This document shows positions 655 through 46,453 of a stretch of DNA of 64,000 nucleotides, piece after piece (the first letter of the stretch is position 1; the number at the start of each line of letters is the position of its first letter). Source of the DNA: Algoriphagus sp. TR-M9 (GTDB lineage: Bacteria > Bacteroidota > Bacteroidia > Cytophagales > Cyclobacteriaceae); the NCBI RefSeq assembly GCF_027594545.1, contig NZ_CP115160.1, positions 2,241,001-2,305,000 on the forward strand, given 5' to 3'. Under the pieces are notes generated by a model that saw nothing but the letters and a program-made list of their open reading frames with translations, made no database searches and had not been told where the DNA came from. The position numbers and the translations under genes are program-made.

Positions 655-847
655 AGAAAGTTGAGAATTCCCTTGGCTTCAGGTCATTTCTTAGCTGCAT
701 GGCTGTCATTACCCCTAATATCATGGGTTTAAATTTTGTTTATAAACGGTCGGATAGCCGGCTCCTTTCTCCTCGGTGGATCGGGTGAATCCGGCTTGAT
801 TGATATTCATCCCAGTGTGTGTCGTATGCAGCATGCTCGGTTTCATC

Positions 848-9165: not shown

Positions 9166-9278
9166 CAGAAATCGAGTCTGCCTAGTCAGTAGACAGGCAT
9201 CACCAACAAGTTACCCACTGGAATGATTATAGCAAAGGCAAGATTCCGTGTGACCATTTAAAAACAAATTATAAACAG
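9166..9278 (+). repeat. 92-nt leader module, copy A (with 21-nt palindromic insertion)
   Basis: This copy ends exactly at the ATGAAA start of the STAS gene (9279). Its last 59 nt plus ATGAAA match the copy at 39555 at 48 of 65 hand-counted positions without gaps. The upstream part matches after removing a 21-nt palindromic stretch (9179-9199, TGCCT...AGGCA); 113 minus 21 is exactly 92. See the related copies at 39555, 39647 and 45855. Confidence 0.65.
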
Positions 9279-9659
9279 ATGAAATATTCTATTGATAAAA
9301 AAGAGCAGTACGTCATCTTCACCCCACAGGAAGACAAATTAGACTCATTGCTAGCCCCTGTATTGAAATCCGAATTGCTTACCATACATGCAGAAGGATT
9401 TGAAAATTTGGTTTTGGACATGAGTCAAGTAAAGTATGTGGACTCTTCGGGACTGAGTGCATTACTAGTAGGAGATAGAGAATTTGGGAAAAATGGAGGA
9501 GTTTTCATTATTTCCAACGTGCAGGATCACGTCATGAAATTGCTAAAGATCTCCATGCTTGATAAGAAGCTGAACCTGGTAAGTTCCCTTGAAGAGGCCA
9601 GTGAAGCTATTTTCATGCATACTATAGAAAATGGTGAAGAAGAGGAGGAGGAAGGTTGA
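9279..9659 (+). CDS. STAS-domain anti-sigma-factor-antagonist-like protein
   Basis: This is a 126-residue single-domain STAS protein (SpoIIAA/RsbV fold). The conserved loop VKYVDSSGLSALL places the phosphorylatable Ser at residue 56 or 57 after Asp55, as in anti-anti-sigma factors that are switched by a serine kinase. The C-terminus is a short Glu-rich tail. No RsbW-type kinase or sigma gene is adjacent. Instead it is followed, with a 4-nt overlap, by rnz, so co-transcription with RNase Z is likely. Its leader is copy A of a repeated 92-nt module. The partner and signal are unknown. Confidence 0.85.
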   Translation: MKYSIDKKEQYVIFTPQEDKLDSLLAPVLKSELLTIHAEGFENLVLDMSQVKYVDSSGLSALLVGDREFGKNGGVFIISNVQDHVMKLLKISMLDKKLNLVSSLEEASEAIFMHTIENGEEEEEEG

Positions 9660-38838: not shown

Positions 38839-39558
38839 ATGGATAGAATATACACCATTTATGCAGGGGTACTCTTCATACTTACTTTTCTGCTCATATT
38901 TCCGTTTTTCTTGATTTGCATCTGGGTACCAGGCTGGAATAAATATGGAAGAAAAATCAATAGATACTGGGCAAGAGCTTATTTTACCTTGATTTACATG
39001 CCTGTGAAAATCGAGAATCACTCCCAATACCAAAAAGGCAAACCATACATATATCTCGCCAATCACTTTAGCTATCTGGATATTGCGATGATGGGTTTTA
39101 TCCCCGGAGATGTACTTTTTGTAGGTAAAGCATCCATTCGCAAAGCCCCCTTATTTGGGTACTATTTCAGAAACCTGCATATAGCCGTAGACCGCGGCAG
39201 ACTGAGGAGCAGAGCTGAAACCATGAAAAGAGCCGGTGAAGCCTTGGATGCAGGGAGTAGCATAATTATTTTCCCAGAAGGCGGAATCTATACCCAAAAC
39301 CCACCTGAGATGTTTCCCTTTAAAAATGGTGCCTTTCGCCTAGCTAAAGAGAAACAAATCCCAATCATACCTGTCACTTTATCTTATAATCATCTAATTT
39401 TGCCAGACGACGGTAAATTGCTGCTCCATCGCAGACCGGCCAAAATGGTCTTGCACGAGCAGCTGATTCCTTCGGAAAGTGATTCTGATCTAGACTTGAA
39501 AAGTAAGTGTTTTGAAGTCATCCAAAATCAGTTAACCATAGACAATACCTTAACATGA
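38839..39558 (+). CDS. 1-acyl-sn-glycerol-3-phosphate acyltransferase
   Basis: This is a 239-residue PlsC-type enzyme of phosphatidic acid synthesis. An N-terminal membrane helix (about 8-30) precedes the acyltransferase motifs: NHFSYLD (75-81, catalytic His76 and Asp81), a GK.S/R motif in VGKASIRKAPLFGYYF, and IIFPEGGIYT. Its stop codon overlaps the first ATGAAA of the tandem 92-nt repeat (ATGA). The repeat separates it from gatC, which was probably once directly coupled to it. Confidence 0.92.
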   Translation: MDRIYTIYAGVLFILTFLLIFPFFLICIWVPGWNKYGRKINRYWARAYFTLIYMPVKIENHSQYQKGKPYIYLANHFSYLDIAMMGFIPGDVLFVGKASIRKAPLFGYYFRNLHIAVDRGRLRSRAETMKRAGEALDAGSSIIIFPEGGIYTQNPPEMFPFKNGAFRLAKEKQIPIIPVTLSYNHLILPDDGKLLLHRRPAKMVLHEQLIPSESDSDLDLKSKCFEVIQNQLTIDNTLT

Positions 39559-39646
39559 AATCGAGCATGTCGGAAGCGACACACAGAGGGATGATTATCT
39601 CCCAAGCGAAATTCCATATGGCCTTTATAAGACAAATTATAATCAT
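39555..39646 (+). repeat. 92-nt leader module, copy B1
   Basis: This is the first of two tandem units that start and end at ATGAAA; the period between the three ATGAAA words (39555, 39647, 39739) is exactly 92 nt. Its ATG overlaps the acyltransferase stop. Conserved words are GAAATCGAGC, GGGATGATTAT, GCGAAATTCCAT and AAATTATAA. Related copies lie at 9166 and 45855. Confidence 0.75.
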
Positions 39647-39738
39647 ATGAAATCAAGCATGACCCGAAGCGACACACAGAGGGATGATTATAATTCATGC
39701 GAAGATTCCATGTGACCTTAAAAAAAAATTATAAACAC
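39647..39738 (+). repeat. 92-nt leader module, copy B2
   Basis: This is the second tandem unit. Its first 45 nt are nearly identical to B1 (identical AGCGACACACAGAGGGATGA); the second half diverges but keeps GATTCCATGTGACC and AAATTATAAACAC. It ends directly at the gatC ATG. A frame inside it (ATG at 39647) has only 22 codons. Confidence 0.75.
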
Positions 39739-40026
39739 ATGAAAATAGATCAAAATTCCATCAAAAAAATTGCTCACCTAGCCCGACTGGAATTTGACGA
39801 AAGCAGTGCGGAAAAAATGTCCAAAGACATGAGCCAAATTCTGGATTGGGTGGAGCAGCTCAATGAGCTAGATACCAAAGATGTAGAACCGCTCACGACC
39901 ATGTCTTCAGAAACAAACGTGATGAGAGAAGATAAAATGACCTCTCACCTGGATCACGAAGCTGGGTTGAAAAATGCCCCCAAACGTGATGAAGACTATT
40001 TCCGCGTACCCAAGGTATTAGAATAA
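39739..40026 (+). CDS. gatC: Asp-tRNA(Asn)/Glu-tRNA(Gln) amidotransferase subunit C
   Basis: From the ATG at 39739 this is a 95-residue GatC, the small stabilising subunit of the GatCAB transamidosome; an upstream in-frame ATG at 39697 lies inside the repeat and would add non-homologous residues. Family segments are IKKIAHLARLEFDE, ILDWVEQLNELDTKDVEPLT and the C-terminal KNAPKRDEDYFRVPKVLE. The gatA and gatB genes are not here, as is common in Bacteroidota where they are scattered. Its stop shares one base with the next ATG (TAATG). Confidence 0.95.
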   Translation: MKIDQNSIKKIAHLARLEFDESSAEKMSKDMSQILDWVEQLNELDTKDVEPLTTMSSETNVMREDKMTSHLDHEAGLKNAPKRDEDYFRVPKVLE

Positions 40027-42815
40027 TGCCCCAATCACAGCATCCTAAAAGCTCCGTTTTTCTGAAAGTACTCGCCCTTCTATTGCTTATCCCGGGAGGG
40101 CTTTTTGCACTTTACTACTTAATTTTTGATCCACAACCTTATCTCAATTTAGCTCCGGCAAGCTTTCTAGATACGGTAGCCATTCCGTTTGATTGGGTAC
40201 AGATCGGCCCCATATCCTTTCCCATCAAAGTGGATAATTTTCTGGTCTTTCAAGAATTCAAATCACTCGCCCCAAGTCTGCAAGGCAAGCAATCCCTAGT
40301 ATTTGCAGGAATAGTGTGGCTGATCAGCGTAGCAGCTTTGACCGTACTCAGCGAGTTCAAAAGACTGTATTTTATTATTGGTGGAGTGATTTGGATAGTC
40401 CTTCTTACCCTCAGTGATTTCAACGCGCTAAATATTTATGGTCAAAACACCACCTTTCCGCTGATGATCTTAATGGCAGGCACCTTGATTCCTGTTATTA
40501 CATTAAACATCTGGGGAACGTATATCCCACTTTTTTTCAAAGGATTACTCCTATTCTCCAGCACTATACTTTCACTCGCTCTGGTACTTTGGCTAAGTCC
40601 CATCAAACATCCGGAAATCTACCTCTCCGAGCACTCTTTACTGCTTGGATTTGGGATGGCTATTGCCTGGGTTTTCTGGAACGGGCATAGCGTGATTTCT
40701 GGTATTTACATCCTCCTGGCCAGAGCCAACCGCAATATCAAGCTAAATATAGCTGTTCAAATAGCGCTGATCACCTTGGTCTATATTGCCACGCTGATCT
40801 TTATTTTACAAGAACTACAAGGAGAGTTAAACCTTCCATTTCCTACTTTCTCCCCTCTATTTCTACTCATCCCTATGGGTGTTTTGGGTTGGATTTCTAT
40901 CCAAGAAAAAACCAAGCAGAGTGAGCAGTTGATCAGTAGCCCCATGGTGATCAAAACACTTCATATCCTTGGTTTTGGGATGGCTCTCTGGATGGTTTGG
41001 AAATTCAAAATCTCCGGAAACCAGCCTGCTGAAGAGCTTTTTAAACATTTATTGACTTATAGTCAGATCGGCTTTTCCCTATTCTTCACCGTTTACCTAT
41101 TTGCCAATTTCACCTCCATTATGAATTCTGGACAGGCGGTTGAAAAAGTCCTTTACAAACCCTATTCCTTGGTTTACTATCACGTCAGAATCGGAGGATT
41201 AATCGGAATGCTGGTGTTGACTACCTATGCGGAAGGCATCATAGGAGTACAGGCTAACGCTATGTCCAGCAACATATTGGCTGATTATTTCTATGAAACT
41301 GACCAAAAACTTGAGGCTGGGATCATGTATGAAAATGCATGGATGCGCTATAGAAAAAACCCCAAAGCAAAGAATGCTGTAGCTCATTTGCTATTGGAAC
41401 AAAATCAACCTTCCCAGGCAAAACTTCATCTGGAGGAAAGCTTTTCGGATGCTCCGCAGGTAGAAAATATCATGCTGCTGAGTGACCGATTGCATCAGGA
41501 AAACAATGTAATAGACGCGGCATATTACCTGGAAAGAGGCCTCGCTATTTTTCCAAACAGCCCTCATTTGGCAAATAACCTGAGTTTATTACTTACCAAG
41601 CTCAATAAAACAGAACAGGCATTGGCAGTGCTGGAAAGTCTGGAAACAAAAAACCCAGTGCTCCACGCCAATACTTTAGCCCTCAAAACAAAACTTGGTC
41701 AGCCATCCATCAGTGCCACTTCAAGCGATGATTTCATCTCCCAGATCAATGAATTGGCCACTTCAAATGCACTGGCGAATAATCCGGCCCAAGAACTTTT
41801 ACTGGCTTTGAAAGAGAAAGCAGAATCTTCGGACTCACCTATGTTGATTCAGGCGGCTTTGAGAAATGTGTTTTCGCAGAAAAACAGAGAAAACCCTACA
41901 GCAGACCTGGCCCTACTGGATAGCCTAGGACAAAAGGAAGAGATGAATCTGTACTTGATGGACATGCAAGAAACAGCTGTGATCAGAAGTCTGGGAGCTG
42001 GTCGTGTAACTGAAGCAGTCAAAAACCTCAACGGATTAGCATTCAGAAACCCAAATGATGCAGGTTATTATTTGCAGCTCTCAGGAAGCATTCTTGCGCA
42101 AAACCTGGATTTTCAGAAGTCTGCCAATGAATTTATTGCTGCTGAGGAAAAGGGATTTCAGGCATTTGACACGCAGCATTGGAGTATATTTGGACTGGCT
42201 GGCATGCCGGACAAGGCCGTAGAAATCCGGGAAAAATATCAGGTACTACTGCCTACCTACCTCACAGAGGAAGGCCCTATTGTGCCGGAATATTTAAACA
42301 GCATCAGCACTTTTCACCAGAGTTTACCTGAGAAACTGTACCAACAATGGCAGACAAGTGCCGATTCTGATCTGAAAACGGACATGGCTATTCGGATTAT
42401 TTCTCATAAAGCTCACGGACTTTCCCAAGGTCAACTGAGAGATTTGGCAGCTTATATCCAAGCAAAAATCGGAGAACAGCAGAACCTACAATCCTTTGTT
42501 TCCAATCCTGACTTAGGAAATACAGAATCTATAAAAGCCTTCATCTCCTGGCTGAACACCGGGGAAGAAGCAGCCGCAAACCCATACCTTACACCCTTGA
42601 TTTTCAGTAAATTAAAATCTTTAAACGACCCTCTCGAACAATATGAACTGCTCAATGCTGCCTCTGAGTTTAACCGGGATCCTATTCTCTGGAAGCATAA
42701 AATAGAAGCAGCGCTCGCAGTAGGACTGGACAATTACGCCCAGGCAGCCATAGAGGAATTGGCACTTTGGGTAGCTGAAAACGACCTGAAAGAACTCTTA
42801 CAGTCAACAAATTGA
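40026..42815 (+). CDS. large polytopic membrane protein with C-terminal TPR domain, function unknown
   Basis: This 929-residue protein is coupled to gatC by TAATG. Residues about 12-410 contain ten to twelve hydrophobic helices separated by short loops. Residues about 425-929 form a TPR-like helical-repeat domain (KLEAGIMYENAWMRYRKNPK, VIDAAYYLERGLAIFPNSP, QALAVLESLETKNP). The layout recalls TPR-tailed membrane proteins in some glycosylation and envelope systems, but I see no O-antigen-ligase or oligosaccharyltransferase motif. I do not recognise the family; a lineage-specific Bacteroidota protein is likely. Confidence 0.7.
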   Translation: MPQSQHPKSSVFLKVLALLLLIPGGLFALYYLIFDPQPYLNLAPASFLDTVAIPFDWVQIGPISFPIKVDNFLVFQEFKSLAPSLQGKQSLVFAGIVWLISVAALTVLSEFKRLYFIIGGVIWIVLLTLSDFNALNIYGQNTTFPLMILMAGTLIPVITLNIWGTYIPLFFKGLLLFSSTILSLALVLWLSPIKHPEIYLSEHSLLLGFGMAIAWVFWNGHSVISGIYILLARANRNIKLNIAVQIALITLVYIATLIFILQELQGELNLPFPTFSPLFLLIPMGVLGWISIQEKTKQSEQLISSPMVIKTLHILGFGMALWMVWKFKISGNQPAEELFKHLLTYSQIGFSLFFTVYLFANFTSIMNSGQAVEKVLYKPYSLVYYHVRIGGLIGMLVLTTYAEGIIGVQANAMSSNILADYFYETDQKLEAGIMYENAWMRYRKNPKAKNAVAHLLLEQNQPSQAKLHLEESFSDAPQVENIMLLSDRLHQENNVIDAAYYLERGLAIFPNSPHLANNLSLLLTKLNKTEQALAVLESLETKNPVLHANTLALKTKLGQPSISATSSDDFISQINELATSNALANNPAQELLLALKEKAESSDSPMLIQAALRNVFSQKNRENPTADLALLDSLGQKEEMNLYLMDMQETAVIRSLGAGRVTEAVKNLNGLAFRNPNDAGYYLQLSGSILAQNLDFQKSANEFIAAEEKGFQAFDTQHWSIFGLAGMPDKAVEIREKYQVLLPTYLTEEGPIVPEYLNSISTFHQSLPEKLYQQWQTSADSDLKTDMAIRIISHKAHGLSQGQLRDLAAYIQAKIGEQQNLQSFVSNPDLGNTESIKAFISWLNTGEEAAANPYLTPLIFSKLKSLNDPLEQYELLNAASEFNRDPILWKHKIEAALAVGLDNYAQAAIEELALWVAENDLKELLQSTN

Positions 42816-45854: not shown

Positions 45855-45946
45855 ATGAATCTGAGCACCATAAACCACCCAAATGAAGGGACAACTATCA
45901 AGCAAGCGAGATTTCATGTGGTTTATCTTTCTCCAAATTTAAGCGC
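45855..45946 (+). repeat. 92-nt leader module, copy C
   Basis: This copy ends exactly at the ATGAAA start codon of the next gene and begins 92 nt earlier at an ATGAAT. Its last 59 nt plus ATGAAA match copy B1 at 42 of 65 hand-counted ungapped positions. The upstream 44 nt have the same length as in B1 and keep GAGC and GGGA. It is the most diverged copy. Confidence 0.6.
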
Positions 45947-46453
45947 ATGAAATATCTAGTAGTTTTTTTCCTTTTATTCGCCGCTTCTTTCTCCGGATTC
46001 GCCCAGTCTACCGATTTTGTATTATTGAAAAGAGGAGCCAACCAAAAATCTCAGATCCGCTATTATCCAGGAGAGGAAATCACTTACAAAAGCACAAAAA
46101 TCGATTACTTCATCACAGATGTCATCGTGAGCATAGATCAGAATTTCATCTACCTGCGTGAAAACATCCTTTCACCTGATGCCATTACTGAAATCGATAT
46201 TCGCAAAAAGGATAAACGAAACGGAACCTTGGGTGCCATGAATGCGCTTGTACTCGGCGCCGGAGTGATTTTTCTAGGTGCAGAATCCATCAACAGCATC
46301 TACCACGACAAGGAGTTTTCCATAGATAAAGGAGTGGGACTCACCTCGGCCATTCTGATCGGTACCGGTCTGGCCATGTTGCCCTTACGCTACAAAATCT
46401 TCAAAAACCAGGGCAGAAACAAGATCCAGCTGATCCAAATGCGCATGGATTAA
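45947..46453 (+). CDS. exported protein of unknown function
   Basis: This 168-residue protein has a signal peptide (1-19, ending SGFAQ). The first half of the mature protein is beta-rich (FVLLKRGANQKSQIRYYPGE, ITDVIVSIDQNFIYLRE); the second half has two hydrophobic helices (about 95-110 and 130-147), probably membrane-inserted. I do not recognise a family. Its leader is copy C of the 92-nt module. The next gene is prfB, 68 nt downstream. Confidence 0.7.
   Translation: MKYLVVFFLLFAASFSGFAQSTDFVLLKRGANQKSQIRYYPGEEITYKSTKIDYFITDVIVSIDQNFIYLRENILSPDAITEIDIRKKDKRNGTLGAMNALVLGAGVIFLGAESINSIYHDKEFSIDKGVGLTSAILIGTGLAMLPLRYKIFKNQGRNKIQLIQMRMD

Follow-up and report, generated by a model that had tools for sequence, protein, structure and literature searches.

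Small mobile elements of the genus Algoriphagus occupy ATGAAA hexamers, mostly at gene starts

The window analysed here is a stretch of 64,000 nt from the genome of Algoriphagus sp. TR-M9. On its forward strand an acyltransferase gene (38839..39558; PF01553), whose closest named relatives belong to Algoriphagus with no more than 78% identity, is followed by gatC (39739..40026; PF02686, E 6e-24), and the space between them is filled by two 92-nt units of the same strand. The hexamer ATGAAA was found at positions 39555, 39647 and 39739, that is with a spacing of 92 nt, as expected for the tandem module bounded by ATGAAA that the first-pass annotation had proposed. Unit 1 (39555..39646) is an older copy with a covariance model score of 100 bits (E 7e-19); its initial ATGA is shared with the acyltransferase gene, the TGA stop of which lies within it. 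Unit 2 (39647..39738) represents a young subfamily, and three other places of the genome are 100% identical to it, including ATGAAA. The right-hand ATGAAA (39739..39744) is the start of gatC. The ATGA overlap of the first ATG with the acyltransferase stop and the assignment of the last ATG as the real gatC start, both claimed before, agree with the protein families found on either side. In a gapped alignment the two units match well, while without gaps only 40 of 92 positions are identical, because small compensating indels separate them, and the equal length of 92 nt is therefore partly luck. Tandem Repeats Finder did not report the array at gatC; when up to 3 mismatches were allowed, the window contained two occurrences of a 27-nt stretch of the unit, and 100 shuffled sequences contained none. 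An Rfam search of positions 39000-40300 gave three matches, all far below gathering scores (E≥2), and thus no known structured RNA. Elsewhere in the window lie an older family copy (9187..9278, forward), whose right ATGAAA at 9279 starts a 126-aa ORF, a degenerate older copy with 34.5 bits (45855..45946, forward), whose right ATGAAA at 45947 starts a 168-aa ORF, and another degenerate older copy on the reverse strand (719..846), which ends in ATGATA, followed only by a 25-aa frame.

The family is abundant in the one-contig TR-M9 genome (4.82 Mb). BLAST with unit 2 plus ATGAAA as a 98-nt query gave 58 matches, 20 of which were 96-100% identical across all 98 nt, and four places were identical to the query. 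The head pattern had 48 exact occurrences and 19 with one mismatch; with up to two mismatches it was found 225 times versus 15 for the reversed pattern, and the tail pattern with up to one mismatch 76 times versus none. A covariance model built from 31 copies scored 150 of 1677 candidates and registered 107 matches at E≤0.1, of which 102 reached E≤0.001. For the census a script delimited 71 copies out of 79 listed places, seven of which had been dropped beforehand (six chance-like heads and one double) together with copy 1555983, whose right end lacks ATGAA; the classes of right flanks given below cover these 71. Among them 64 sequences are different, and one group consists of four identical copies. 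Some young units adjoin a gene, and others stand in front of an older unit, at its left ATGAAA (1623775, 2882479). Unpartnered heads and tails were also considered as a possible autonomous copy, and those inspected in TR-M9 look decayed or accidental, though the model could miss a long form.

The six bases following the copy are ATGAAA in 69 of the 71 delimited copies, and the two other hexamers are ATGAAT, at a gene that is sucC-like by eye, and ATGAAG, at the start of a degenerate unit. In the sucC-like case the left side is ATGAAATC and the right one ATGAAT, which suggests a joint somewhere in bases one to five of the hexamer. A wider set gave ATGAAA on the right in 151 of 156 copies, a value somewhat biased by the presence of this hexamer in the search model. 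Another unit follows in 11 of the 71 cases, and among the 60 copies that are last in their array 52 adjoin an ORF of at least 60 aa beginning with that very ATG, while 8 do not; listing the bases after each copy, the check proposed at the outset, thus favours insertion. For relatives, 73 copies were classified from 60 fetched stretches picked from the top of the score list (12 matches from L031-L053 excluded): 42 lead into an ORF of at least 60 aa, 11 into a unit of the first kind and 20 into neither. In ten of these 20 a unit of the second subfamily comes next, which leaves 42 of 52 terminal copies at ORF starts. According to a crude gene call, ATGAAA starts 11 of the 52 genes of the window, and of its 101 occurrences there about 10 are at gene starts, 15 intergenic and 76 intragenic. 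Judged against this placement, random landing would give far fewer than 52 of 60 copies at ORF starts, and the loss of intragenic sites alone would also give fewer.

The eight exceptional TR-M9 copies were examined by joining their flanks. Copy 3708603 is located in an open frame of 286 residues (HAD-like by eye), seven residues from its end, and 718402 within a frame of 64 residues. Copy 3703747 occupies the final codons of a Y1 transposase gene in antisense direction, 420896 falls into a frame of 110 residues and uncertain standing, 2560536 lies immediately upstream of a likely start ATGCGT and 546869 in a short antisense frame without clear meaning, while 2707778 and 3853246 span no long frame. 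Some copies thus reside at an ATGAAA that lies within another frame or on its opposite strand. The element therefore seems to aim for the hexamer itself, with which many genes begin, and not for the start codon. Of the idea of a small mobile element targeting start codons the mobile element is thus retained and the target has to be reworded. The plainest reading is insertion at ATGAAA followed by the loss of most gene-breaking insertions.

The gatC junction was then compared in the 23 named relatives in which it could be read. One unit is present in five of them (L034, L036, L037, L041 and L049, the last being Aquiflexum lacus, where the unit is recognised by sequence) and none in 17, while L047 is unclear, having a long leader without a model match. 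Within A. aquimarinus the site is filled in L041 and empty in L040. In all five filled relatives gatC starts with ATGAAA; ATGCAA, ATGAAT or ATGAAG begin the gene in six relatives (L031, L042-L046), all devoid of the unit. Relatives without a unit, for example A. chordae (L033) and A. antarcticus (L035), show the intact ATGA overlap. The junction thus carries none or one unit in relatives and two in TR-M9, and its empty sites retain the overlap, in agreement with the expectation formulated for an insertion. At a second gene, filled in genome G020, both flanks joined without the unit were used as a query against 23 chosen genomes, 18 of which matched. G018 contains an exact empty site, with 500 of 500 positions aligned at 90% identity and the junction read; matches in G064, G074, G016, G061, G058 and G027 were near full length, and G062 and G013 have other units at the same ATGAAA start. 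Genome copies, empty sites and tandem arrays together support the earlier proposal that an element was added to the junction and recreated ATGAAA each time.

In a search of 58 genomes with stricter filters and at most 61 candidates scored per genome, model matches were obtained in 33, namely in 32 of 36 genomes of the same genus and in one of 22 others. At least 40 matches were registered in each of 14 genomes including TR-M9, and none or one in fourteen genomes of the genus. G013 gave at least 61 matches, and seven copies read there are no more than 88% alike and may be relics. The 92-nt units are a real family of small mobile elements, common in one genus and having an unusual target.

Folded as single strands, short forms of the unit often give two adjacent hairpins (6 of 60 folds were inspected, and they are not all alike). 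In the left one AATC closes with GATT over GCATG:CATGC and further stems, in the right one CATXTG closes with CAYATG, and both copies of ATGAAA are thereby placed together at the base of the fold. In unit 2 these are the hairpins 39651..39707 (AATC 39651-39654 with GATT 39704-39707, enclosing GCATG:CATGC) and 39709..39741 (CATGTG 39709-39714 with CACATG 39736-39741), X being G 39712 and Y being C 39738, all on the forward strand. The segment 39704..39714 of the same strand, GATTCCATGTG, is guide-like: it is complementary to the left ATGAAATC as well as to the right junction CACATGAAA, bar one A.C mismatch at the fourth base of the hexamer, which is kept in nearly all copies.

X and Y correspond to columns 64 and 92 of the model, and Y directly precedes the right ATGAAA. 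Their mutual information, 0.94 bits in 84 distinct copies from relatives, exceeds that of every other filtered column pair, the next value being 0.25. Watson-Crick pairs were found in 97 of 112 short forms versus 38 expected from the margins, though these copies, being related, are no independent samples; the count leaves out the 43 long forms among the 156 copies and one short form in which X could not be read. The 15 exceptions are 11 A.G (nine of them in G024, G030, G031 and G034), two A.C, one C.C and one C.T. All three types of pairs coexist in G000, G018, G020, G022, G023 and G027. Parsimony requires 30 changes in X and 26 in Y on a weakly supported tree of copies, on which a sign test had no power. 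In long forms the X-Y pairing is often broken, and an extra hairpin lies between CCAT and XTG. Some of them (for instance G000:C1:3213178 and 4756753) carry the palindromes CCTGCCTGAGGCAGACAGG and CCCG..CGGG at fixed points, which are perhaps nested repeats. No dependence on X was seen for the host base that precedes ATGAAA on the left. X-Y is therefore a pair within the unit and gives no evidence for reading of the target.

For the left helix, relatives offer three compensating forms, TC:GA, TGCCC:GGGCA and TACCC:GGGTA. The second subfamily (subfamily B) pairs ATGAAATGCCC with GGGCATTCCAT, and one copy pairs ATGAAATACCC with GGGTATTCCAT; these compensations support the left helix with the host hexamer included. 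Mismatches in this helix are present in some subfamily-B copies, stem C shows several types of pairs, and in the 31 TR-M9 copies, where the columns hardly vary, no covariation above shuffled alignments was detected for helices 1 and 2. With DNA parameters the mean fold energy is alike on both strands (-8.0 and -7.6), with RNA parameters it is lower on the other strand (-16.0 versus -19.4), where the conserved A.C would be a G.T wobble.

Based on this data one can assume, with a probability of roughly 60%, a non-autonomous element that inserts at ATGAAA, folds into two hairpins, carries a built-in guide, is served in trans by an enzyme of Y1 or similar type and finds a safe harbour at start codons. 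The 92-nt unit enters ATGAAA and leaves an intact ATGAAA on either side, as is apparent from the genome copies, empty sites and tandem arrays. Its single strand can fold into AATC..GATT and CATXTG..CAYATG so that the two hexamers meet, and the internal GATTcCATXTG would pair with the cleavage sites and the target, as in IS200/IS605. For IS608, PMC5934647 describes guides within the element that recognise the cleavage sites and the target by pairing with them and that can be reset. A Y1-type (HUH) or similar single-strand enzyme presumably acts in trans, and intragenic insertions would mostly be lost. A gene would tolerate insertion at its start codon, since ATGAAA is restored and a new initiation region is provided by the AT-rich tail; this tail becomes the stretch directly upstream of the ATG of the gene, in line with the suggestion that the unit brings its own initiation context. 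Single-strand transposition of the IS200/IS605 kind in trans is likely, and the fold in which two ends meet may explain both how the unit moves and how it finds its target. A bolder view, which we hold only tentatively, is that of a self-guided DNA with its own address label. An internal segment would pair with ATGAAA and bring the element to this Met-Lys start hexamer, which it would rebuild and provide with a new initiation region, living at gene starts at little cost to the host and moved by an enzyme of an undescribed class or by a known one in an undescribed use.

The enzyme was sought in 80 Y1/RAYT loci (73 distinct places with genes matching PF01797 or NF047646), consisting of 6 Y1 loci of TR-M9, 29 Y1 loci of relatives, 30 RAYT loci and 15 further stretches. 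The element model found no element-like ends there: the one strong match is the copy at the 3' end of the transposase gene L055, that in L141 is weak (30 bits) and that in L310 is at chance level (E 0.43). In G013 a match to PF01797 is absent at E≤1e-5, and weak RAYT matches are present. RAYT-like genes were registered in all 25 genomes searched (E≤0.001), in 13 of them above the curated cut-off. Several features of these loci were noted in passing. In L055 (G000:C1:3703664-3703761) the antisense copy alters the C-terminus of the Y1 transposase. The Y1/RAYT genes L055-L060, L312 and L313 lie, by eye, amid palindromic repeats of their own that differ from gene to gene. RAYT-like genes with in-frame repeats or inserts are found in L300, L302, L303 and L307 (G013, G015, G001), and the DNA of L300 resembles a REP hairpin (GTAGGGACAACGCATGCGTTGTCCCTAC), as if REPs were inside the transposase gene.

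That no HUH gene could be linked to the units leaves room for another route, in which the mobile element is transferred by a site-specific recombinase acting on a folded strand, as with attC, or by an RNA-level or RNA-guided process, with ATGAAA as a shared core. In attC sites an unpaired spacer separates two paired boxes, and the unpaired GA/GA spacer between two paired boxes of the left hairpin recalls this architecture; the identical core at both sides fits core-to-core recombination, and the tandem arrays are cassette-like. However, the covarying right hairpin CATXTG:CAYATG has, to our knowledge, no counterpart in attC. ATGA is the target of HEARO/IscB; matches to RF02033 (HEARO) were found in none of 59 genomes, in a search whose control gave none as well and which thus weighs neither way. 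Such a route appears unlikely. Still less probably the unit is a regulatory leader, an attenuator or a translation control element, that selection has maintained and ordinary recombination has copied from gene to gene. Most copies do precede genes in gene orientation and form hairpins, and the former start of the gene now opens a short leader frame, such as MKSSM. Yet most relatives examined have the orthologous genes without the unit, the downstream genes appear functionally diverse as judged from first residues and names by eye, some copies are inside or antisense to other frames, and the leader frames vary, spanning 11-33 codons in 10 of 11 tandem cases and running into the gene in the eleventh. 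Local tandem duplication or an assembly artefact at gatC, which the equal 92-nt spacing might evoke, is refuted, as the unit recurs at some 100 further places of the one-contig genome and gave at least 40 matches in each of 13 other genomes.

If the preferred reading, insertion at ATGAAA by a guided single-strand mechanism, is correct, its guide logic should allow the target to be reprogrammed by altering bases of the element, a change already made in IS608 (PMC5934647). Mobile elements limit the harm they cause by means of safe sites. In the present case this role would fall to the start codon, a most sensitive position of a gene, which would be made safe by the restored hexamer and by the upstream region that the element carries with it. 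No fewer than 52 genes, gatC included, have had their 5' leaders rewritten by the element, and the old start can become a short leader frame. Leaders of several core genes seem to be among those rewritten by the units. Copies 1543587, 1293398 and 3614306 (G000) precede genes judged by their first residues to be sucC-, mscL- and ilvC-like.

In the literature covered, outside which most subscription papers and bioRxiv lie, no description of this element was found, and the units are best compared with known systems of similar size or behaviour. Integron attC cassettes use a folded single strand, have the core on both sides and form tandem arrays, all of which applies to the unit as well; in contrast to cassettes, the unit contains no ORF beyond short leader frames, is scattered over the genome and has a different core. 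Like MITEs of DDE transposases it is short, non-coding and non-autonomous, but terminal inverted repeats were absent by eye in the alignment of 64 distinct TR-M9 copies (left ATGAAATC.., right ..TTATAAACAY), and one target hexamer is used at nearly all sites. With REP elements of RAYT it shares small size, high copy number and hairpins. REPs are palindromes of 20-40 bp (PMC3733652), whereas the unit has about 92 nt and two hairpins and is located at ATGAAA; moreover, in the loci searched its copies do not flank RAYT genes, and the six Y1/RAYT genes of TR-M9 have other palindromes (by eye). The closest likeness is to IS200/IS605 and PATEs, which also lack terminal inverted repeats, have subterminal hairpins and a fixed orientation to a short target and contain internal segments complementary to the cleavage sites (PMC5934647). 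The differences are that no TnpA with matching ends was seen among the Y1/RAYT loci searched, that IS608 and ISDra2 have shorter targets than ATGAAA, namely TTAC and TTGAT (PMC5934647), and that the left and right sites of the unit are one and the same hexamer, a single internal segment being able to serve both. The unit may thus work like an IS200/IS605 derivative, though it is not filed as one.
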